Shown here: positions 20,606 to 31,598 of the stretch, in pieces
Numbering within the stretch: position 1 is the first letter of the stretch
Layout of the letters: each line of letters starts with the position of its first letter
Notes under the pieces: generated by a model
What the model saw: only the letters and a program-made list of their open reading frames with translations
Told to the model about the DNA's origin: nothing
The model's database searches: none
Translations under genes and position numbers: made by a program
DNA from: Bradyrhizobium sp. AZCC 1693
GTDB taxonomy: Bacteria; Pseudomonadota; Alphaproteobacteria; Rhizobiales; Xanthobacteraceae
Direction: 5' to 3'
NCBI RefSeq assembly: GCF_036924745.1
Contig: NZ_JAZHSD010000001.1
Span: 5,208,001-5,272,000 of the forward strand
DNA: 64,000 nt

Positions 20606-21277
20606 TTAGGTTTGCGGCCTGCCGGATGCGGGCCCGATCCCGAGCATCTCGGCCATTCTCACCAGATCGGGCAGCGACTTCGCGGTCATTTTTCGCATGA
20701 TGTGCCCGCGGTGTATCTTCACGGTGATCTCGGCAATGCCGATTTCGGCGGCAATCTGCTTGTTCATGAGGCCGGCCGTGACCAGAGCCATCACTTCCCG
20801 TTCCCGCGGGGTCAGGGTCGCGAAACGAGCATGCAGGCCGGAGAGCATCCTGGCTTCATCGCGGCTGACCCGGTCGCGTTCGATTGCCGCGGTTACGGCA
20901 TCCAGCATGTCCTGGTCGCGGAACGGCTTGGTCAGGAAGTCGACGGCTCCGGCCTTCATCGCCCTGACCGTCATCGGGATATCGCCGTGGCCCGTCATGA
21001 AGATGATCGGAATCTGAATATCGGCCTTCGCCAGCTCGGCCTGAAAGTCGAGGCCGCTCAGCCGGGGCAGCCTGATGTCGAGGATCAGGCAGCCGGCAAC
21101 GTTCGGAAGCTTGCTCTGCAGAAACTCGTGAGCCGAACCGAACACTTCGACCCGCAACCCTACCGACCGGAAAAGGTTGCTCAGGGCTTCACGCACCGAC
21201 GCGTCGTCGTCGACAACAAAGACGACCGGTTCCTCGGCGCTTGCGAGGGTGTGAGGCGATGCTGGACGGCCGTTCAC
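20606..21277 (-). CDS. FixJ-family response regulator (receiver plus LuxR HTH)
   Basis: A 223-residue regulator. The receiver (about 16-130) has the acidic cluster at 23-25, phosphoacceptor Asp67 (LILDIRLPRLSG), Thr in FMTGHGD and Lys117 (LTKPF). The LuxR-type helix-turn-helix (about 150-212) is evident from LTPREREVMALVTAGLMNKQIAAEIGIAEITVKIHRGHIMRK, split here into recognisable blocks. The GTG start at 21277 overlaps the kinase stop by 4 bp and has AGGAGG 7 bp upstream; a longer frame to 21385 would overlap the kinase and is rejected. It should be phosphorylated by that kinase and activate transcription. Confidence 0.9.
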   Translation of the reverse strand: MNGRPASPHTLASAEEPVVFVVDDDASVREALSNLFRSVGLRVEVFGSAHEFLQSKLPNVAGCLILDIRLPRLSGLDFQAELAKADIQIPIIFMTGHGDIPMTVRAMKAGAVDFLTKPFRDQDMLDAVTAAIERDRVSRDEARMLSGLHARFATLTPREREVMALVTAGLMNKQIAAEIGIAEITVKIHRGHIMRKMTAKSLPDLVRMAEMLGIGPASGRPQT

Positions 21278-23049
21278 GTACTGTCCTCCTGATGCAATGG
21301 CAGGGTGAACTGAAACGTCGCGCCGGTACCGGCATTGCCGGACGCCGACAGCCGTCCTCCGTGTGCGTCGACGATCGAGCGGCAAATCGACAGGCCCATG
21401 CCCATGCCGCTGGATTTGGTGGTGAAGAAGGCATCGAACAGCCGATCGGCATTCTCGGCGGCCACGCCGACACCGCAGTCGCTCACCGTGACCAGAACCT
21501 GGCGGGCCTCGTCCTGGAGCGTTCGGATCACCAGTTCGCGCGGCCGGTCCTTGACCGGTTGCATCGCTTCAATCCCGTTGACGACGAGGTTGAGGATGAC
21601 TTGTTGCAGCTGGATCCGGTCGGCGAGGACCGGCGGGAGGGCAGGGGCGAGTTCCAGCCGCAGCGCCACGCGGTGGCTGAGCAACTCATGCTGCACGAGG
21701 CTCAGGACCTCGTTGACGACTTCGTTGATGTGGAGCGCCTTCCGATCGGTGGTCTTGTTCACGAGCGCGCGGACGCGCTGGATGACCTCTCCCGCCCGAT
21801 TGCCGTCATTGATAATCGACTGCAGGGTGCCGCGCGCTTCCTTCAGGTTGGCAGGTTCGCGGTCGAGCCAGCGCAGGCATGCCGCGGCATTGGTGACGAC
21901 GGCGGCGAGCGGCTGGTTCACTTCATGGGCGATCGACGCAGCCATTTCCCCGAGCGCCGTCACCCGCGCGACATGCGCCAGGTTCGTCTGCGCTTCATGC
22001 AATTCGATCTCGGCTTGCTTGCGGGCGGTAACATCCGTCACGGCCCCGACAAATTCGACGCCACCTGATGCATCCGTCACCGCACGGGCCGTGGCGTGGA
22101 CATGCTTGACCGCGCCGTCAGGCATCAGCAATCGATATCCGTGCTCGAAGTCCCTTCCGTCGCGGGACGCGCGGTCGATGGTCTGTTGCACGCGCGCACG
22201 ATCGTCCGGATGAACGCGTTGAAAGACCGCGGCGTGGTTGATGGAGGGAGCCTTGTCGTAGCCAAACATTCTGAATGTTTCTTCCGACCAAATGATTTCT
22301 CCGCTGGCGACGCGCCAGCCGAAGCTGCCTGTGCCGCTCAATCGCTGAGCTTCGGCCAGATACATTTCACTCTGCCGCAAGGCATTTTCGGCCTCCTTGC
22401 GCTCGGTGATGTCCTCGCACGCGATCAGCACGATCAGCTGATTGTCCAGCCGCCGCACGGCCTTGGCGTTTTCACGAACCCAAAGCGCTGAACCGTCCTT
22501 GCGGACCTTCCGGATTTCCCAACTGTGGGGTTGGCCGATGTTCTCCAGGCATATGGCAACGTTGCTCCGGGCTGCCTGCTGCTCTTCGGCAGGAAAGACT
22601 TTCAGCACGGATTGCCCGAGCAATTCGCTGACGGAGTAGCCGAGTTGTGCCGCGCCGAATGTGTTGACCGACAGCACTGTGCCGGCCGCGTCGACCATGA
22701 AATACATCACCGGGTTGTGCTCGAATACTTCCTTCCATTGCGCCTCACGCTGACGCAACGCCTCTATCGCGTGTTGTTCGGCTCTCGACCGGCCGTGGAG
22801 CACGGCTTCCATCTGCCTGCGGGCAGTGCCCACCCGGCGCATCATGATCAGTGAGGCGAGAAGCGAGGCAATGAGCAGCACGACGGCGGTCAAATAGGCG
22901 GGGGCCGCCGGCGCGGGGCCGAGCACAAGCCAGATGAAGGCCGCCGCAGCCAACGCCAACACCATGCTGCCCAGCAGCCATTGCTCGGCGGAGCGCCAGG
23001 ATTTCATGGTCTGGTCCCGCATCATAGGCAGCACAAAAGGCTTGGCCAT
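21274..23049 (-). CDS. PAS-domain sensor histidine kinase with two N-terminal membrane helices
   Basis: 591 residues. Two helices (about 25-45 and 50-70) form a hairpin with almost no periplasmic loop, so the signal is probably intramembrane or cytoplasmic. Two PAS domains follow (about 103-220 and 232-345), each ending in a DIT/DVT motif with ERK/ARK. The phosphorylation box has His375 (ASIAHEVNQPL), the same HEVNQPLAA subtype as FixL and DctB-like kinases, and N, G1 and G2 boxes are present. No haem-binding His pattern of FixL was identified. First gene of a kinase-regulator-receiver operon. A Met at 9, 10 or 15 could also be the start. Confidence 0.9.
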   Translation of the reverse strand: MAKPFVLPMMRDQTMKSWRSAEQWLLGSMVLALAAAAFIWLVLGPAPAAPAYLTAVVLLIASLLASLIMMRRVGTARRQMEAVLHGRSRAEQHAIEALRQREAQWKEVFEHNPVMYFMVDAAGTVLSVNTFGAAQLGYSVSELLGQSVLKVFPAEEQQAARSNVAICLENIGQPHSWEIRKVRKDGSALWVRENAKAVRRLDNQLIVLIACEDITERKEAENALRQSEMYLAEAQRLSGTGSFGWRVASGEIIWSEETFRMFGYDKAPSINHAAVFQRVHPDDRARVQQTIDRASRDGRDFEHGYRLLMPDGAVKHVHATARAVTDASGGVEFVGAVTDVTARKQAEIELHEAQTNLAHVARVTALGEMAASIAHEVNQPLAAVVTNAAACLRWLDREPANLKEARGTLQSIINDGNRAGEVIQRVRALVNKTTDRKALHINEVVNEVLSLVQHELLSHRVALRLELAPALPPVLADRIQLQQVILNLVVNGIEAMQPVKDRPRELVIRTLQDEARQVLVTVSDCGVGVAAENADRLFDAFFTTKSSGMGMGLSICRSIVDAHGGRLSASGNAGTGATFQFTLPLHQEDST

Positions 23050-23956: not shown

Positions 23957-24020
23957 TGCGGATTCCGGCCACGTATGCGACGCTCTGTAGCATTGAGGCC
24001 CGAGATCGCAAGGTAGCACC

Positions 24021-24455
24021 ATGGATGACAGCCTGCCCGAACTGGGCGACCTCGAACGCGAGGTCATGCAACTGGTTTGGGCCAATGGTCCTGTCACGGC
24101 CGAGGCCGTCCGCGAACGGCTTTCCCGCCCGTTGAAAGAATCGACCGTCCGCACCGTGCTGCGACGATTGGAAGACAAGGGCTACACCACGCACACCGTG
24201 GATGGACGAACCTATGTCTATCAGGCCGCCGAGCCACGCGCGCGGGTTGCGGCGAAAGCCGTCCAGCGCATCGTCGACTGGTTCTGCAACGGCTCCGTCG
24301 AAGAGGTCCTGGTCGGCATGGTGGACACGGCGATGCTCGACCAGCGCCAGTTACGCACGCTGGCCGACCAGGTTGCGAAGGCCAAGACTAAAATCAAGAC
24401 CAGGACTGAGACCAAAGCCGAGACCAAGACAGAGGCGAAGGGAAGGAGGAGATAA
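24021..24455 (+). CDS. BlaI/MecI/CopY-family transcriptional repressor
   Basis: A 144-residue winged-helix repressor: LPELGDLEREVMQLVWANGPVTAEAVRERL is the family's opening, followed by STVRTVLRRLEDKGYTTH (recognition helix) and the wing with DGRTYVYQA. The dimerisation half includes VEEVLVGMVD. The last 25 residues are an unusual Lys/Thr/Glu repeat tail (TKIKTRTETKAETKTEAKGRRR region). Its stop and the start of the M56 protease share one base (TAATG). In the known systems the paired membrane protease triggers cleavage of the repressor; the same logic is inferred here. CopY metal-binding Cys residues are absent. Confidence 0.9.
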   Translation: MDDSLPELGDLEREVMQLVWANGPVTAEAVRERLSRPLKESTVRTVLRRLEDKGYTTHTVDGRTYVYQAAEPRARVAAKAVQRIVDWFCNGSVEEVLVGMVDTAMLDQRQLRTLADQVAKAKTKIKTRTETKAETKTEAKGRRR

Positions 24456-26989
24456 TGCTGGCGATTCTGGCGGAGTCGGCGCTACGCGCCTTGCTTCTCG
24501 GAGGCGTCGTGTGGATTGGCTTGAATCTTTTGCGGGTACGGAATCCGCACGTGCACATGACCTGCTGGGCCATGGTGCTGGTGGCGTCATTGTCGATGCC
24601 GCTGTTGATGCATTGGACCACGGTAACCGTTACCGTGGACGCGCTGCCGGTGCCGGCGGCCGAACATTTCTGGCCTGCCGGTCCAACGGGCAGTCCGCTG
24701 GCGGAGCCGCTGCGTGAGATGCTCCCGGCTGAGCAGGGCATGGCGGCCGCTCGCTCAGCGCCTGTGCAGGCGCTGAATTGGCTGGCACTGGCCACCATCG
24801 TTTATGCGCTCGTCGCCGGCCTGCTGTTGTCGAGGCTGGCGGTCGGCCTTTACCTGACCTGGCGGCTGGCCCGTGCCGCCAAGCCGATGCGCGCACCCTG
24901 GACCGCCGACTGGAGCGTGCGCGTGAGCAGCGTGATCGCCGGGCCTGTCACCTTCGGCTCGACCATTCTGCTTCCGCCGCAATGCTTCGACTGGGACATG
25001 CGCAAGCGCCAGGCCGTGCTGGCCCATGAGGGCGCGCACGTCGCCAACCGCGATTTCTATCTGCTGCTGCTCGCGTCGCTCAATCGTTCGGTGTTCTGGT
25101 TCAGTCCGTTCGCGTGGTGGCACCACACCAGGCTGGCGGAATTAGCCGAAATCATCAGCGACGCAAGGGCGCTCGAAGTGGTCGAGGACAGGCTGTCCTA
25201 CGCCGAGATCCTGCTCGACCTCGTGCAGCACGTTCGGCGGGCGCCGGCGGGCATCGAAATGGCAAGGGCGTGCACGGTGCGTAGCCGGGTGGAGCGCATT
25301 CTCGCGGCTACCGCGGCCCCGGCGAAGCTGGGCTGGGGCAAACGAATCGGCACCGTGGCAGTCATCCTGCCGGTTGTGCTCGTCTCTGCCGGCTCCATCG
25401 CCTATCGCACCCAGCCGGCGGCTTCGGCCGCGCTCGACCATGCGGCAGATGCCGTGACCGCGGCGCGTAAGCCGCAGTCGGTTTCCTTTTATGCATTGGA
25501 TCGCGCGTCGATCTTCACCGTTTCGCGGGAGGGCGACGACTTCTTCGGGCAAGTCAGCGGACAGCGAAAGCTCCGGTTGGTGGTGCTGGGTGATGGGACC
25601 TATTTCTACCCCGCGGCGGCCGGCCCGATCACATTGGCCGTCAGCCATGAACGGAAGCCATTCGCTCCGGTGCTGAACCAGAATGGCCGCGGCATCAGCG
25701 CGATCAGGACGGCCGAATTGTCGTGGCAAGGGATCGCGGTGGATGCGGGCCGGCTGGATTCATATGTCGGCACGTACCAGTTGGGACCCGGCCGCGTCCT
25801 CACCGTCATCCGCGATGGCGAGCGGCTCCATGTGCAGGAGACGGGGCGGCCGAAATTCGAGATCGTGGCGCGCGGCGTCGATGCCTTTGCCAGCAGCCAT
25901 AATGATCTGGTTGTTTTCCTGCGCGACGGTCAGGCCAAGGTGACCCAGGTTCTACTACACGAGCCGGTGTATGGCGCCCGGTTGGCGCCGCGGGTCTCTG
26001 CGGCCAGGGCGAAGGCGATCGAGGAAGACTTTTCGCGTCGGATCGCGGCGGCGCCGGATCGATTCAGGGATCAAATCCCGCTGCCGGGCAGCAAGGAGAT
26101 GATCCTGCAAGGGATCGATGATCTGCAGCGGGGAGCGCCCAGTTACGAGCGGATGAGCGCGGCGCTGGCGGCCAGGATCCGGCGCCAGGCTTCCGAGTTG
26201 CAGGCCATGTTCAAGGCGTTCGGCGCGGTGGAATCGATCTTCTTCCGCGGCGTCGGCCCGGGTGGCTATGACATCTATGGCGTGAAGTTCGCCAATGGCG
26301 TCGCGGAATTCCGCATCCTGCTGGGGGCGGACGACAAGGCCGACGATGTCATCTTCCGGCCGGATGGCAACAACAAGCCCGGTGGCATCGTCGCCTGTTC
26401 GGAGGAAGGGGGCCTCAGAGCCACGGCCGAGACCGCGCCGATCAAGGTGCTGATCTACAATGGCAGCGGGAGCGATCTTCAGCTCTTCAAGCTGGACGCG
26501 GAGGGCAAACGCGCGGCCTTCGGGACCATCGGCGAGGACATGACGTTTCCGGTCACGACCAATGTCGACAGTCCATGGGTGATCGCCGATGGAGCGGGGA
26601 AGTGTCTGGAGATCGTGCTGCCGGGACAGCGCACGCGCTTCCACACGGTCGAGGCGAGCGGCCGGCCCGGCGGCGCAATGCTGCCACGCACCGTTCCACT
26701 GGCCGGCAGCGAAGCGACGCTGCGCGGATATATCGAGGCCGTTGGCCGCGGCGAGCCGGACTACGATCGCATGACGTCCGAAGTCGCGGCGCAGACCCGC
26801 CAGCAGCTTCCCTTCAACCAGGCCATTGTCTCCAGGCTCGGCGCCCTGCGCGCGATGTCGTTCCGGGGCGTCTCGGCTCTCGGCAGCGACATCTATATCG
26901 TCCAGTTCGCCAATGGTTCGGCGGAGTGGCGGATCGGCCTGGTCAAGGACGGCACGATCGGACGGATTGCGCTGGGTCCGCAGTATTAG
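24455..26989 (+). CDS. BlaR-like M56 membrane metalloprotease with DUF3471-like and VHL-like sensor modules
   Basis: An 844-residue membrane protease. The N-terminal part (1-about 315) has four hydrophobic helices and the zinc motif HEGAH (191-195), with EIISDA (232-237) as the probable third ligand region, as in BlaR1/MecR1. The large C-terminal part differs: no SxxK penicillin-binding domain is visible. Instead there are two DUF3471-like beta units (about 343-412 and 432-505), a repeat unit (541-636), a segment like the von Hippel-Lindau beta domain (about 662-725; LFKLDAEGKRAAFGTI, SPWVIADGAGKCLEI), and a second copy of the repeat (747-844). The two repeats share FRGV, DIY, FANG and AE.RI. 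The signal sensed is unknown. Confidence 0.85.
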   Translation: MLAILAESALRALLLGGVVWIGLNLLRVRNPHVHMTCWAMVLVASLSMPLLMHWTTVTVTVDALPVPAAEHFWPAGPTGSPLAEPLREMLPAEQGMAAARSAPVQALNWLALATIVYALVAGLLLSRLAVGLYLTWRLARAAKPMRAPWTADWSVRVSSVIAGPVTFGSTILLPPQCFDWDMRKRQAVLAHEGAHVANRDFYLLLLASLNRSVFWFSPFAWWHHTRLAELAEIISDARALEVVEDRLSYAEILLDLVQHVRRAPAGIEMARACTVRSRVERILAATAAPAKLGWGKRIGTVAVILPVVLVSAGSIAYRTQPAASAALDHAADAVTAARKPQSVSFYALDRASIFTVSREGDDFFGQVSGQRKLRLVVLGDGTYFYPAAAGPITLAVSHERKPFAPVLNQNGRGISAIRTAELSWQGIAVDAGRLDSYVGTYQLGPGRVLTVIRDGERLHVQETGRPKFEIVARGVDAFASSHNDLVVFLRDGQAKVTQVLLHEPVYGARLAPRVSAARAKAIEEDFSRRIAAAPDRFRDQIPLPGSKEMILQGIDDLQRGAPSYERMSAALAARIRRQASELQAMFKAFGAVESIFFRGVGPGGYDIYGVKFANGVAEFRILLGADDKADDVIFRPDGNNKPGGIVACSEEGGLRATAETAPIKVLIYNGSGSDLQLFKLDAEGKRAAFGTIGEDMTFPVTTNVDSPWVIADGAGKCLEIVLPGQRTRFHTVEASGRPGGAMLPRTVPLAGSEATLRGYIEAVGRGEPDYDRMTSEVAAQTRQQLPFNQAIVSRLGALRAMSFRGVSALGSDIYIVQFANGSAEWRIGLVKDGTIGRIALGPQY

Positions 26990-27082
26990 CGCCGATGAAC
27001 TCACGACATCAGGGGATGCCAAAAGCCTCGGATTCCCGGCACCGCGGCGAGCGACCGCAAAAGGCGTGAACGGGAGGATCGA

Positions 27083-28240
27083 ATGAGACGGCGCCAGTTT
27101 GTTTCACTTCTCGGTGGAGCTGCGCTGGCGCCGCTCACCGGGTTGCCGGTGTACGCGGACCTGCCCGACGGCTGCGATGTTCCGGTCGCGCGAGACGACG
27201 GCTGGCCCGTCGCTTCCCTCAATGAGGATAAGCTCATCGACCGCGCGGCGCTGTGCAGGATGGCTGATCGGCTGGCCGCCTCGAGCGATGCCAATATACA
27301 TGCCGTGCTGGTCGCTCGGAGTGGCAAGCTGGTGTTCGAGCGGTACTTCAGGGGTTCCGACGAGATCTACGGCCGCCCGGTCGGGAAAGTCACCTTCGAC
27401 GCCGATACATTGAACAATGTGAAATCGGTTTCAAAGAGCGTCGCGTCACTCGCCGTCGGGATAGCGATCGATCGCGGGCTGATACGCAGCATCAACGAAC
27501 CGATCTTCAGCTTTTTCCCCGAGTTGTCAGACTTGCGTTCCCCTGAGAAGGACCGCATCCAGTTGTTGCACGTGCTCACCATGTCGATGGGGCTGGGGTG
27601 GGTGGAGGCGACGCCTAGCAACGAGGGCAACAACGACGAGGGGCGCATGCATATGGCGCCAGATCCGTGTCGTTATGTCCTCGGTCTTCCGGTGACTGCC
27701 CCGGCAGGACAAGAATTCTTTTACAACACCGGCGCGCTCACGCTCATGTCGGCCATTATCCGTAAGGCGACCAGACGCCCCCTCGATGAATTTGCGCGCG
27801 AGACGTTGTTCGAGCCCCTGGGCATTACTCGCGTAGAGTGGAATCGGTACAAGGGAGATACCGATGCCGGTGGGGGATTGCGCTTGCGGCCGCGCGATAT
27901 GGCAAAACTCGGCCAGCTCGTCCTCGCGGGCGGTCGTTGGAACGACCGCCAGATCGTTTCCAAGGAATGGATCGAGACCTCGACGGCACCGAAGCTCAAG
28001 GCCACGGACCGTCAATCTTATGGATACCTATGGTGGCTCGGTCGCTCCCTGCTCAATGGGCGTGAGGTCCACTGGGTTGGCGCACTTGGTCGAGGCGGGC
28101 AGTCGATTCGCATCGTCCCGGAGCTCGATCTCGTTGTCGTGGTGACCGCGGGATACTACCAGGACTACAGCCCCAAAGCGTTTCAATTGCAGTACGGCGT
28201 TTTCAGGGACGTCCTGCGCGGGATTTCGCCGCCGGGCTGA
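27083..28240 (+). CDS. Tat-exported serine hydrolase of the class C beta-lactamase family
   Basis: A 385-residue protein with a twin-arginine signal (RRRQFVSLLGGAA at 2-14, cleavage near VYA-DL). The catalytic SxxK motif is SVSK (115-118), the Tyr motif is in FFYNTGA (Tyr214), and GALGRGGQSI near 330 supplies the third, HxG-like element, with Gly in place of His/Lys. These are marks of the esterase/peptidase branch (beta-lactamase-like serine hydrolases) rather than a proven beta-lactamase. GGGAGGA precedes the ATG. It lies 93 bp behind the BlaI/M56 pair on the same strand, so it may be their regulated product or a supplier of the signal. Confidence 0.85.
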   Translation: MRRRQFVSLLGGAALAPLTGLPVYADLPDGCDVPVARDDGWPVASLNEDKLIDRAALCRMADRLAASSDANIHAVLVARSGKLVFERYFRGSDEIYGRPVGKVTFDADTLNNVKSVSKSVASLAVGIAIDRGLIRSINEPIFSFFPELSDLRSPEKDRIQLLHVLTMSMGLGWVEATPSNEGNNDEGRMHMAPDPCRYVLGLPVTAPAGQEFFYNTGALTLMSAIIRKATRRPLDEFARETLFEPLGITRVEWNRYKGDTDAGGGLRLRPRDMAKLGQLVLAGGRWNDRQIVSKEWIETSTAPKLKATDRQSYGYLWWLGRSLLNGREVHWVGALGRGGQSIRIVPELDLVVVVTAGYYQDYSPKAFQLQYGVFRDVLRGISPPG

Positions 28241-28264: not shown

Positions 28265-28524
28265 TGCATTGGTCCGCTTGTAGCCCATCGCGTCACTTCG
28301 CTGCTGCGCAGCAACGCCGAGGTCAAAATAGCGTATCCGCCACCGATGTCAGATCATGGTGAGGAGACGGCAGCGCCGCGCCCCCTCGGAGGATGCTCTG
28401 CATCCGATCAAACCACGAGGCCTGGCTCGACCCGAGCGAGCCGCACTCAATCGGGACTTGCATGGCCTGTTCGTAAGTGTTACTACTCGTAGCACTACAG
28501 GGTGTCGCAGCCTCGGGTGTTGCC

Positions 28525-29967
28525 ATGAGCCGTTCTGCAAAGGCTGAAGCCGCGCTGGCCCTCCATCGGTTCGGGATGGGGCCGCGTCCGGGATCGATCG
28601 CGGCGATCGAGGCCGACCCGCGCGGCGCGTTGATCGCCGAACTCGATCGTCCCGCGATCAGCGAACTCGCTGCCGCCAATCTGCCGTCGAGCGCCAAGGC
28701 CTATCGCGCGGTGACCGACGCGTTTGCGAAGCGGCAAGCCAAGGCGATCGTCGCCAAGAAAGAGCAGGACGCGAAGCGCCAGCAGATGGCGGAAGCGTCC
28801 GCGATGATGGAAGGCGCCGCGTCAAATACGGGCGAGATGGCGCAAAAGATCGCCGCCGAAGCCGTGCCCGATCCGGGGCGGCAGATCTATCTCGACGAGG
28901 CGCGGATTCGTATCGCGGCCGCGCTCGGCGCCGAGATCGGGTTTGTCGAGCGGCTGGTCTGGTTCTGGTCCAATCATTTCTGCGTCTCGGCCGACAAGAT
29001 CCGCAGCATGTCCGGCGCTTATGAGCGCGAGGCCATCCGCCCTCATGTGCTTGGCCGCTTCACCGACCTGTTGCTGGCGGCCGAGGGCCATCCGGCGATG
29101 TTGTTCTATCTCGACCAGACGGTTTCGATGGGCGCGAACTCGACCGCTGGCCTCAATCGCAGCCGCGGCCTTAACGAGAATCTCGCGCGCGAGATTCTGG
29201 AGTTGCATACGCTCGGCGTGCGTAGCGGCTACACCCAGGATGACGTGATCGGCTTCGCCAACATTCTCACCGGATGGACCCTGGTGCCGCCCGGCGACAA
29301 TCCCGAGCACGGCGGCGAATTCACCTTCAATCCCCGCCTACACGAGCCCGGCGCGCAGAAGGTGCTGGGAAAATCCTACGAGGACGAAACGGTGGAGCAG
29401 GGACGTGCCGTGCTGCGCGATCTCGCCGCCAATCCTGCGACAGCTTCGCATGTGGCGACCAAGCTGGCCCGCTATTTCGTGGCCGATACGCCGCCGCCTG
29501 CGCTGGTGGAACGGATAGCGAAGGCGTTCCTCGATACCGGCGGCGATCTCAAGCAGGTCGCCAGGGTGATGGTCTCGTCCGACGAGGCGTGGAGCGAGCC
29601 GCCGGCCAAACTTAAGCGGCCCGGCGAGTGGGTGGTCGGCATGGTGCGCGCGACCGGGCTCACGCAGACCGACCCTGTGCGGTACACGGATGGACAGGTC
29701 CTGCTCGGCGAACCGTTGTGGCGGCCGCCGTCGCCCAAGGGTTTCCCGGACGACGAAGCATCCTGGATCGACGGCATGGGACGGCGGCTCGACGTCGCCA
29801 ATTATTTCGCCGAGCGCATCGCAGGCAGGACCGATCCCCAGGATGTCATCGAGACCGTGCTCGGGTCACAGGTGTCGCCGGAGGTGAAGCAGGCGGTCGG
29901 CCGCGCCGAGAGCCGTCAGCAGGCACTCGTGCTGTTGTTCATGTCGGCCGAATTCCAGAGGAGGTGA
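28525..29967 (+). CDS. DUF1800 family protein
   Basis: A 480-residue protein matching DUF1800: LHRFGMGPRPGS near the start, VWFWSNHFCVSADK (about 150), the strongly conserved LNENLAREILELHTLGV, and YTQDDVIGFANILTGWT. The family nearly always lies next to a DUF1501 gene, as here. A central region of the N-terminal half is Lys/Gln/Glu-rich and probably coiled (AKKEQDAKRQQMAEASAM). The start is uncertain: ATG 28525 begins the family similarity, while GTG 28477 would add 16 mainly hydrophobic residues that could act as a signal. Function unknown; thought to be exported. Confidence 0.85.
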   Translation: MSRSAKAEAALALHRFGMGPRPGSIAAIEADPRGALIAELDRPAISELAAANLPSSAKAYRAVTDAFAKRQAKAIVAKKEQDAKRQQMAEASAMMEGAASNTGEMAQKIAAEAVPDPGRQIYLDEARIRIAAALGAEIGFVERLVWFWSNHFCVSADKIRSMSGAYEREAIRPHVLGRFTDLLLAAEGHPAMLFYLDQTVSMGANSTAGLNRSRGLNENLAREILELHTLGVRSGYTQDDVIGFANILTGWTLVPPGDNPEHGGEFTFNPRLHEPGAQKVLGKSYEDETVEQGRAVLRDLAANPATASHVATKLARYFVADTPPPALVERIAKAFLDTGGDLKQVARVMVSSDEAWSEPPAKLKRPGEWVVGMVRATGLTQTDPVRYTDGQVLLGEPLWRPPSPKGFPDDEASWIDGMGRRLDVANYFAERIAGRTDPQDVIETVLGSQVSPEVKQAVGRAESRQQALVLLFMSAEFQRR

Positions 29968-29969
29968 GC

Positions 29970-31220
29970 ATGACCTTTCGCCACCATCTGCCAACTCGCC
30001 GCGAGGCGCTGATCGGCGCCGGCAGCTTGTTCGCATGGAGCCAAATGCCGCGGCTCGCACGCGCCGAGGGCCGTGATCCGCGCATGCTCGTCATTGTGCT
30101 GCGAGGCGCGCTCGATGGTCTCGGCGCGGTCGCCCCCGTCGGCGATCCCGACTGGATCGGCCTGCGCGGCGAGCGCGCGCTCGTGCTCGACGGCAAGCCG
30201 CCGGCGCTGCCGCTCGACGGCTTCTTCGCGCTCAATCCCGCGATGCCGAACCTGCACCGGCTCTACAAGGCGCAGCAGGCGACCATCGTGCACGCGACCG
30301 CAACGCCCTATCGCGAGCGCTCGCATTTCGACGGCCAGGATGTTCTCGAAAGCGGCATCGCGCGGCCGGGCGCCGTCGACACCGGCTGGCTCAACCGTGC
30401 GCTGGCCGAGCTGGCGTCGGACGGCCGGGTCGATCCGCGCGGCAGTCGCGTCCTTGGTGTCGGCTCCGTGACCCCGCTGGTGGTCCGCGGCCGCGCGCCG
30501 GTGCTGTCATGGGTGCCGCAAAAATTGCTGCCGGCCAACGAAGACACCCAGGCCCGGCTGCTCGATCTCTATAAACACACCGATCCGAAACTGGCGGCCG
30601 CGCTCGAGGCAAGGATGCGTCTGGCCGCGCTCGGCGCCACAGGACCATCCGATGCTGCCATGGTCGACGCCGCTGCGCTTGCGGCTCCCGGCATTGCCGG
30701 GGTGCGGGCCTATTTTGCGGAAGCCGCCGGCACCGCGGCCCGCTTTCTCGCCAAGCCCGACGGCCCCCGTGTCGGGGCGGTCGGCTTCGTCGGCTGGGAC
30801 ACCCACATCAACGAGGGCGCGGCCTCCGGTCAGCTCGCCAACCTCCTTGGCGCGCTCGACGGGGCGTTGGCGGCCATCGAGACCAATATGGGCGACGCCT
30901 GGCGCGAGACGGTGGTCGCCGTCATCACCGAGTTCGGACGCACCGCGCGCATCAACGGCACCAACGGAACCGACCATGGCACCGGCACCGTGGCGTTTCT
31001 CGCCGGCGGCGGCTTGCGGGGCGGGCGCGTGGTCGCCGACTGGCCGGGGCTGAAGCAAGCCCAGCTCTATGAGGAACGCGACCTCAAACCCACGACCGAT
31101 CTGCGCGCCGTGCTCAAGGGCCTGCTCCGCGATCATTTGAGAATCGACGAGCGTGCGCTCGCAACCACCGTGTTTCCCGACAGCATCGGCGTCGCGCCGA
31201 CTGCCGGTCTGGTTGGTTAG
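29970..31220 (+). CDS. DUF1501 family protein, Tat-exported
   Basis: A 416-residue protein with a twin-arginine signal (TRREALIGAGSLFAW at 9-23, cleavage near ARA-EG). The family belongs to the alkaline phosphatase/sulfatase-like fold: MLVIVLRGALDGLGAVAPVGD near the mature start, RSHFDGQDVLESG, VGWDTHINEGA and TEFGRTARINGTNGTDHGTG are all seen, the last supplying metal-ligand-like Asp/His. GAGGAGG lies just upstream of ATG 29970, two bases after the DUF1800 stop, so the two form an operon. Function unknown; export through Tat suggests the protein folds, perhaps with metal, before export. Confidence 0.9.
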   Translation: MTFRHHLPTRREALIGAGSLFAWSQMPRLARAEGRDPRMLVIVLRGALDGLGAVAPVGDPDWIGLRGERALVLDGKPPALPLDGFFALNPAMPNLHRLYKAQQATIVHATATPYRERSHFDGQDVLESGIARPGAVDTGWLNRALAELASDGRVDPRGSRVLGVGSVTPLVVRGRAPVLSWVPQKLLPANEDTQARLLDLYKHTDPKLAAALEARMRLAALGATGPSDAAMVDAAALAAPGIAGVRAYFAEAAGTAARFLAKPDGPRVGAVGFVGWDTHINEGAASGQLANLLGALDGALAAIETNMGDAWRETVVAVITEFGRTARINGTNGTDHGTGTVAFLAGGGLRGGRVVADWPGLKQAQLYEERDLKPTTDLRAVLKGLLRDHLRIDERALATTVFPDSIGVAPTAGLVG

Positions 31221-31256: not shown

Positions 31257-31598
31257 GTGAAGAGGAGATCTGCCATGAAGTCACCAGCCATTGTCCTGTC
31301 GCTCGCCATTTCCACCATCGTGCTGCCGTCGGGATTTACGACGGCGTCAGCCAGCAAGATGAACGGCAAATGTTGCCAGTCGTCCGACGGCGGGCGCTCC
31401 TATCGATACCGGATGGCCATGCAGCGGGCCGCGATCCCCCACACCTGCAGCGCCTATGCCGCCTCGTGCATGCGAAATTCCAGCGCACGGCCGGACCACG
31501 CGCAGATGTGCGGCGCCGCGAAATCGCAATGCCTGCAGAGCGGGGTTTATGTCGGCCCCTACAGCGGTATGAACTTCGCCGGAATGCAGAAGATGTAA
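31257..31598 (+). CDS. Small exported Cys-rich protein
   Basis: A 113-residue protein with a signal peptide (hydrophobic AIVLSLAISTIVLPSGF, cleavage near ASA-SK). The mature part of about 75 residues has six cysteines: CC in NGKCCQ, then one in HTCSAY, one in ASCMRN, one in QMCGAA and one in SQCLQS, which could form three disulfides in the periplasm. GTG 31257 has AGGAGG 7 bp upstream; ATG 31275 with its own GAGGAG is an alternative start giving 107 residues. It follows the DUF1800-DUF1501 pair by 36 bp in the same direction. No family recognised with certainty. Confidence 0.65.
   Translation: MKRRSAMKSPAIVLSLAISTIVLPSGFTTASASKMNGKCCQSSDGGRSYRYRMAMQRAAIPHTCSAYAASCMRNSSARPDHAQMCGAAKSQCLQSGVYVGPYSGMNFAGMQKM

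Follow-up and report, generated by a model that had tools for sequence, protein, structure and literature searches.

A probable BlaR1/BlaI-type switch with a predicted multimodule sensor and a candidate operator shared by variable putative target genes in Bradyrhizobium

INTRODUCTION

In the BlaR1-BlaI and MecR1-MecI systems of S. aureus and B. licheniformis, a BlaI/MecI repressor is encoded beside an M56 gluzincin protease that has an extracytoplasmic part at its C terminus, and operators precede both the regulator genes and an effector gene. The sensor of BlaR1 and MecR1 is a class-D-like domain that becomes acylated, and on signal BlaR1 cleaves BlaI, as described in a passage of PMC9834060. 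Small regulons comprising blaI, blaR1, and unknown proteins have been reported for BlaI_1845 and BlaI_0696 of C. thermocellum (a section of PMC8457756), a composition similar to the one described below, in another bacterial group and with other effectors.

The window analyzed here is a 64,000-nucleotide stretch of the genome of Bradyrhizobium sp. AZCC 1693 (NZ_JAZHSD010000001.1, positions 5,208,001 to 5,272,000). It contains a BlaI-M56 gene pair that resembles the above systems in gene content and operator placement. Unlike in BlaR1 and MecR1, the sensor is predicted to consist of five noncatalytic modules, and the presumed effectors comprise a constant pair, DUF1800-DUF1501, and others that vary among strains. 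M56 proteins without a penicillin-binding domain are already present in databases, so that the novelty lies in the make-up of the sensor and in the mapped candidate regulon. In the open-licence literature searched, neither an M56 sensor containing DUF3471 or VHL modules nor BlaI control of DUF1800-DUF1501 was found described, and no mention of DUF3471 was found. The function of DUF1800-DUF1501 is called unknown in a passage of PMC5122149, where a link to chitin is suggested for other bacteria.

RESULTS

A BlaI-type repressor and an M56 protease are encoded in tandem

The locus lies on the plus strand and starts with the genes for a BlaI/MecI-family repressor of 144 amino acids (aa) (24021 to 24455; PF03965, E = 2e-28), an M56 protein of 844 aa (24455 to 26989; PF05569, E = 1e-13), and a PF00144 serine hydrolase of 385 aa (27083 to 28240; PF00144, E = 4e-36). 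An open reading frame (ORF) check re-found all three where the first-pass annotation had placed them, with the stop codon of blaI and the start codon of the M56 gene sharing 1 bp and a gap of 93 bp before the hydrolase gene. These are followed by a DUF1800 protein (PF08811, E = 8e-120; 28525 to 29967, 480 aa from the homologue-supported start) and a DUF1501 protein of 416 aa with a twin-arginine motif, TRREAL (PF07394, E = 3e-33; 29970 to 31220). Among the flanking genes, one at 31257 to 31598 encodes a small, secreted protein that contains cysteines and lacks Pfam matches and is present in 6/80 loci from related genomes, and a PAS histidine kinase and a LuxR-type response regulator lie upstream on the minus strand (20606 to 23049), the kinase having a counterpart in 1/80 loci.

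The repressor passes the family cut-off (PF03965, 99.3 bits versus 22.6), has PDB matches to BlaI and MecI, and is the sole PF03965 match listed for the genome of the window (7.6-Mb contig). Two M56 matches were found on the same contig, the second being a 408-aa open frame at G000:C1:3190099-3190500. Residues 1 to 315 of the window's M56 protein (24455 to 25399) form the membrane-embedded gluzincin protease core, in which the PF05569 domain exceeds the Pfam cut-off and both the HExxH and the ExxxD motif are present: in the alignment with BlaR1 (8exs/8exp), HEGAH (residues 191 to 195) and E232xxxD236 line up with the protease motifs described in a passage of PMC9834060. All 67 aligned M56 sequences, that of the window among them, have H191, E192, H195, E232, and D236. 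The AF2 model is of poor quality in the protease core. In the repressor, the N101-F102 residues that form the cleavage site of S. aureus BlaI (same passage of PMC9834060) are replaced by G-M, and N-F is not conserved. Taken together, the Pfam families, the protease motifs, and the BlaI partner bear out the initial reading of this pair as a BlaI/BlaR-like switch.

The sensor part is predicted to be a chain of noncatalytic modules

SxxK and K[ST]G are absent after residue 320 of the window's M56 protein, and among the 67 aligned sequences, neither occurs at any single place in half or more. A hidden penicillin-binding domain was sought in residues 320 to 844 by motif, Pfam, NCBIfam, PDB sequence search, and fold, and none was found; the NCBIfam model blaR1_generic scored 27.9 bits, against a cut-off of 400. 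The enzyme fold match of the sensor is confined to accessory barrels, and the catalytic penicillin-recognising domain was not found, omissions from the fold lists (VIA-align) carrying no weight as exclusion. The reading in the first-pass annotation of a sensor built of other modules is supported, and the predicted folds give five such modules. Module 1 (residues 341 to 422; 25475 to 25720) is a beta barrel, and module 2 (residues 424 to 515; 25724 to 25999) is a lipocalin-like, DUF3471-like barrel with the predicted fold of the C-terminal barrel of penicillin-recognising-type enzymes. Module 3 (residues 546 to 637; 26090 to 26365) is an alpha/beta repeat, A, tentatively NTF2/cystatin-like or DUF3887-like; module 4 (residues 652 to 737; 26408 to 26665) has a predicted fold like that of the VHL beta domain (PF01847); and module 5 (residues 752 to 840; 26708 to 26974) duplicates module 3 as alpha/beta repeat B, with a similar order of helices and strands. 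All five are on the plus strand. Residues 750 to 838 have relatives in other ORFs of the same genome and of the order.

A weaker point of this fold assignment is that Foldseek by itself gave E = 1.3e-4 for the whole model against 1ei5, the D-aminopeptidase of O. anthropi, and E = 4.7e-3 for the module model against the PBP-type cyclase Ulm16. In these enzymes and in the PBP-type cyclase SurE, the barrels accompany a catalytic penicillin-recognising domain, whereas in the window's M56 protein, where that domain was not found, they are joined to a protease switch. The Pfam cut-off of PF11954 (DUF3471) is not reached by the M56 protein, so its kinship to DUF3471 barrels rests on the fold and on homologues. 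Among the latter, two CubicO-type PF00144 hydrolases with DUF3471 and an alpha/beta repeat (P0138 and P0139) share 38 and 41% identity with M56 residues 420 to 645; this barrel-plus-repeat unit, akin in sequence to the C termini of CubicO-type hydrolases, is fused to an enzyme in the one case and to a sensor in the other. The same unit is common to the M56 sensor and to MerR-family regulators (P0121 to P0137 except P0127; L009), at 21 to 34% identity in the 16 aligned. These are one-component regulators with a MerR DNA-binding domain and no protease, in which the unit is tied to transcription control, as it is here. Its occurrence in both kinds of protein means that the barrel-plus-repeat unit may be a portable ligand sensor.

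The roles of such barrels in enzymes suggest, by analogy, a peptide-like ligand for the M56 sensor. In the PBP-type cyclase PenA, a loop of the lipocalin-like domain lies over the substrate cleft, and in Ulm16, an inclined domain narrows the cleft (both in a passage of PMC11735501). The lipocalin domain of Pab87, an enzyme with a proposed role in the processing of D-amino-acid peptides, contributes to closing off the active site (a passage of PMC2651629).

The switch is usually followed by DUF1800-DUF1501

A survey of 242 genomes of the same genus found the M56 gene near full length in 83, including one copy with two in-frame stops (G267), and split in 4 more, giving 87 carriers. From the 82 full-length loci besides that of the window, 80 were fetched; G335 and G165, in which the contig ends 111 bp after the M56 gene, are outside this set. 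BlaI is encoded upstream of M56 in 80/80 fetched loci, a recurrence beyond chance, and DUF1800 and DUF1501 are encoded downstream in 59/80, in each of these 59 and in the window with DUF1501 directly after DUF1800 on the same strand at an estimated gap of 0 to 6 bp. The usual order is BlaI-M56-operator-DUF1800-DUF1501, with this last pair as the most frequent presumed output. The loci are related by descent, and these counts are not independent events. Two general downstream neighbours are a small ORF (71/81 loci) and an RlpA-like PF03330 gene (67/81), each found with or without DUF1800; the latter occurs in 50 of 60 loci with DUF1800 and 17 of 21 without and was rejected as a specific target.

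The hydrolase gene behaves differently. The first-pass annotation had grouped repressor, M56 protein, and hydrolase as neighbours, yet the three are rarely so: the hydrolase gene directly adjoins the M56 gene in 3/87 carriers (the window, G211, and, truncated, G137), which rules out the trio as a conserved unit. An orthologue at 77 to 80% identity lies downstream in 8 of the 80 loci, in one of them truncated, and counting the window and G333, it lies within 3.3 kb of M56 in 10/87 carriers and is not near in the other 77. Genomes with at least one orthologous stretch at 74% identity or more number 32 of 242, 17 with M56 and 15 without. The G137 locus (L102) retains a remnant (residues 244 to 385) between M56 and the DUF1800 operator, the place that the intact gene occupies in the window.

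At the more distant BlaI-M56 loci of Niveispirillum, Azospirillum, AAP38, a Rhodospirillales bacterium, and a Tardiphaga metagenome-assembled genome (MAG), neither DUF1800, DUF1501, nor the hydrolase was found in the DNA around the locus. By eye, the M56 proteins of L232 and L233 have other C-terminal parts.

An inverted repeat is a strong candidate for the BlaI operator

The inverted repeat GYKAC-N5-GTARC (G[CT][TG]AC-N5-GTA[AG]C) precedes blaI in 81/81 loci and DUF1800 in all 60 loci that possess this gene. In the window, candidate operator 1 (TGCGAC-N5-GTAGCA; 23976 to 23992, without assigned strand) lies 28 bp before the start codon of blaI and scores 22.6 bits, and candidate operator 2 (TGTTAC-N5-GTAGCA; 28478 to 28494, likewise, then CTACA to 28499) lies 30 bp before that of DUF1800 and scores 22.8 bits. 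The scoring matrix, built solely from sites of the genus (141, these two included), ranks them as the two best of the 64-kb window, with operator 2 first, and the next nonoverlapping match scores -6.6. An extended pattern has operator 2 as its only exact match in the genome of the window, with five further places at two mismatches, one of which overlaps operator 2. The longer form TG[CT][TG]AC-N5-GTA[AG]C[AG] was found at the blaI site in 78/81 loci and at the second site in 76/81, by the bounds used. Among its 221 matches on both strands of the loci (1.78 Mb, counted twice-stranded), 219 fall at these two sites and the remaining 2 are the displaced DUF1800 site of L107, versus 12 matches for the reversed-pattern control. 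Seventeen of the 21 loci without DUF1800 retain a site about 50 to 110 bp after M56. Before M56, the pattern occurs in 0/81 loci, a weak control given that this stretch is mostly blaI coding sequence. Although the matrix stems from one genus, sites of 20 to 44 bits also precede blaI in alphaproteobacterial relatives, namely, Niveispirillum, Azospirillum, AAP38, the Rhodospirillales bacterium, and the Tardiphaga MAG. On these sequence grounds, GYKAC-N5-GTARC is a strong candidate for the BlaI operator.

In 25 chosen genomes, the pattern has 62 matches, versus 48 for its reverse, so that single matches in trans are within chance and weight is placed on recurrence and position. Outside the M56 locus there are 17 matches, including one in G319 at a distance of 12 kb, and 15 of these 17 precede genes of six recurrent kinds: S9 peptidase (4), RND adaptor (3), a PF00144 hydrolase of the 557-aa type (2), a small secreted protein (2), DUF1800 (2), and the hydrolase orthologue (2). 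The matches of L300 and L301 are outside all recurrent kinds and were dropped. DUF1800-DUF1501 with a site is found far from M56 in G181, and the G319 match, about 12 kb off, precedes DUF1800. The small secreted protein, found in G211 and G035 (L308 and L312), ends in KITKKSQLHDGCHSRYAQMLGKPCH (62 aa in G035), with the operator near its start; what we take to be a gene resembling recA lies close to it.

In some strains, the hydrolase is one of several genes behind the candidate operator

The window's hydrolase scores 125.2 bits for PF00144 (cut-off, 27) and carries S115xxK118 and Y214-N-T. It is putatively exported by the Tat pathway, as judged from an N-terminal RRxF motif that also stands at the N terminus of relatives (12 rows printed of a 27-row alignment, one being the window's own gene). 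Its best solved relatives are Lsa45 (8dc1) and 8rlj, followed by 6-aminohexanoate-dimer hydrolases; the class C beta-lactamase model NF033085 gave 16.3 bits, far below its cut-off of 415.

In G211, an operator lies between M56 and the hydrolase gene, directly before the latter. The window and the intact linked loci L109, L111, L117, L126, L130, and L140 have no operator of its own before the hydrolase gene, which would thus depend on read-through. Among the 20 unlinked hydrolase loci examined, an operator precedes the orthologue in 3 of 7 M56 carriers (G250, G134, and, by matrix, G326), the other 4 having none, versus 0 of 13 genomes without an M56 orthologue, a set that includes G316, with a distant M56, but neither G266 nor G308, the latter lacking its 5' end. 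This difference gives a Fisher P value of 0.03 with kinship ignored, and G250 and G134 belong to one supported group of three. The first-pass annotation had proposed a link between hydrolase and switch, and as far as regulation is concerned, the G211 operator and the sites in trans speak for it; this support does not extend to the suggested role of the hydrolase in supplying or removing the ligand of the sensor. In a hydrolase tree of 26 rows, which left out fragments or split copies of G137, G236, G266, G308, G326, and G333, the seven linked hydrolases form one supported group and that of the window falls outside it; the linkage to M56 could conceivably have had a single origin.

Other genes recur in the same positions. 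A different PF00144 hydrolase occupies the slot between M56 and the DUF1800 operator in L107, L116, and L125, the L125 copy with a PDZ domain, and L091, which comes from the nearest genome (88% identity), has a divergent gene for a PDZ-bearing relative of the L125 hydrolase (52% identity), with an extra 16-bit site. In tblastn searches with four queries, two of them from these loci, PF00144-like genes were found within 6.5 kb downstream in 14/80 loci, versus 1.1 expected from 230 genes in 110.9 Mb (12 genomes). A PF00144 hydrolase (557 aa in G289, where it has two DUF3471 stretches) is preceded by a site in G250 and G289, as is an RND adaptor in G250, G289, and G326 (12 to 18 bits), and in the Tardiphaga MAG (L184), an RND operon follows BlaI-M56 with an operator between. 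S9 peptidase genes follow DUF1501 in L168 and L170 and stand behind an operator elsewhere in G246, G250, G137, G318, and, by matrix, G289. A contrast for S9 between genomes with and without M56 (5/15 versus 0/15, and 0 in the window's own genome) was set aside as biased, since 4 of the 5 genomes had been picked for an operator already seen. With such varied PF00144 hydrolases, S9 peptidase, and RND pump in the locus or behind the repeat, the hydrolase is, as read from sequence, an optional member of the putative regulon.

DISCUSSION

The locus probably encodes a BlaR1/BlaI-type transmembrane switch in which the penicillin-acylating sensor has been replaced by a chain of noncatalytic binding modules. 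It appears to work like BlaR1-BlaI and, by the tests run, not as a beta-lactam sensor. BlaI dimers would sit on the GYKAC-N5-GTARC repeats seen before blaI-M56 and DUF1800-DUF1501. Outside the inner membrane, the predicted tandem barrels, the two alpha/beta repeats, and the VHL-beta-like domain would bind a ligand noncovalently, most likely a peptide-like one, perhaps with D-residues, to go by the enzymes that share the modules. Binding would activate the M56 protease, whose motifs are present, and BlaI would be cleaved, as by BlaR1. Derepression would then extend to blaI-M56 and DUF1800-DUF1501 and, in this strain, by read-through from the blaI promoter, to the hydrolase. Given that other serine hydrolases, an S9 peptidase, and an RND pump stand behind the same operator in relatives, the output looks like an exchangeable set for envelope protection or detoxification.

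With such a switch, Gram-negative soil bacteria would have a system of the BlaR1 type whose candidate operator and target set are mapped and in which different serine hydrolases are wired to one candidate operator in different strains. It would place the DUF1800-DUF1501 pair under a known kind of switch, and because the sensor modules point to a class of ligand, the signal can be sought directly. A bolder reading, rather unlikely as it stands, is that the accessory barrels of a D-peptide-processing, penicillin-recognising-type enzyme were placed on a BlaR1-type protease as a decoy, which would read by binding the compounds that the exchangeable hydrolases destroy and the RND pump expels, namely, D-residue or nonribosomal peptides of competitors. 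If so, DUF1800-DUF1501 would be the core effector, with an inducer and a role against peptide antibiotics.

The same barrels, by accompanying enzymes that act on D-residue or nonribosomal peptides, would also suit a monitor of the cell's own envelope, in which the sensor would bind muropeptides of the cell or wall peptides that are misassembled, and the regulon would serve to repair the envelope. This, the main alternative, is likewise rather unlikely. BlaI itself is the target of a gamma-D-Glu dipeptide in B. licheniformis (a passage of PMC3305447), which fits envelope monitoring, as does the lytic-transglycolase-type PF03330 gene downstream in 67/81 loci; however, the presence of that gene does not depend on DUF1800 (50/60 loci with it and 17/21 without) and says little on the regulon, and a set of exchangeable hydrolases and an RND pump would rather be expected of a defence against compounds from outside.

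It is improbable that the hydrolase is a mere passenger, having settled between M56 and operator 2 where insertion is tolerated, with the switch serving DUF1800-DUF1501 only. The common gene order without it (59/80), its proximity to M56 in only 10/87 carriers, its presence in 15 genomes that have no M56 orthologue, and its truncation beside M56 in G137 would all be expected of a passenger, but the operators that immediately precede it, next to M56 in G211 and at unlinked loci of G250, G134, and G326 (versus 0/13 examined genomes without an M56 orthologue), would not, nor would the recurrence of other PF00144 hydrolases in the slot after M56.

Finally, despite the family resemblance of the repressor, the protease, and the PF00144 fold, an ordinary beta-lactam switch, with beta-lactams still recognized by the sensor and a beta-lactamase as the hydrolase, is very improbable, in view of a sensor without SxxK or KTG, the scores of blaR1_generic (27.9 bits versus 400) and of the class C models (far below cut-off for the hydrolase), and the solved structures closest to the hydrolase, which are Lsa45, a class C-related serine hydrolase, and 6-aminohexanoate-dimer hydrolases.
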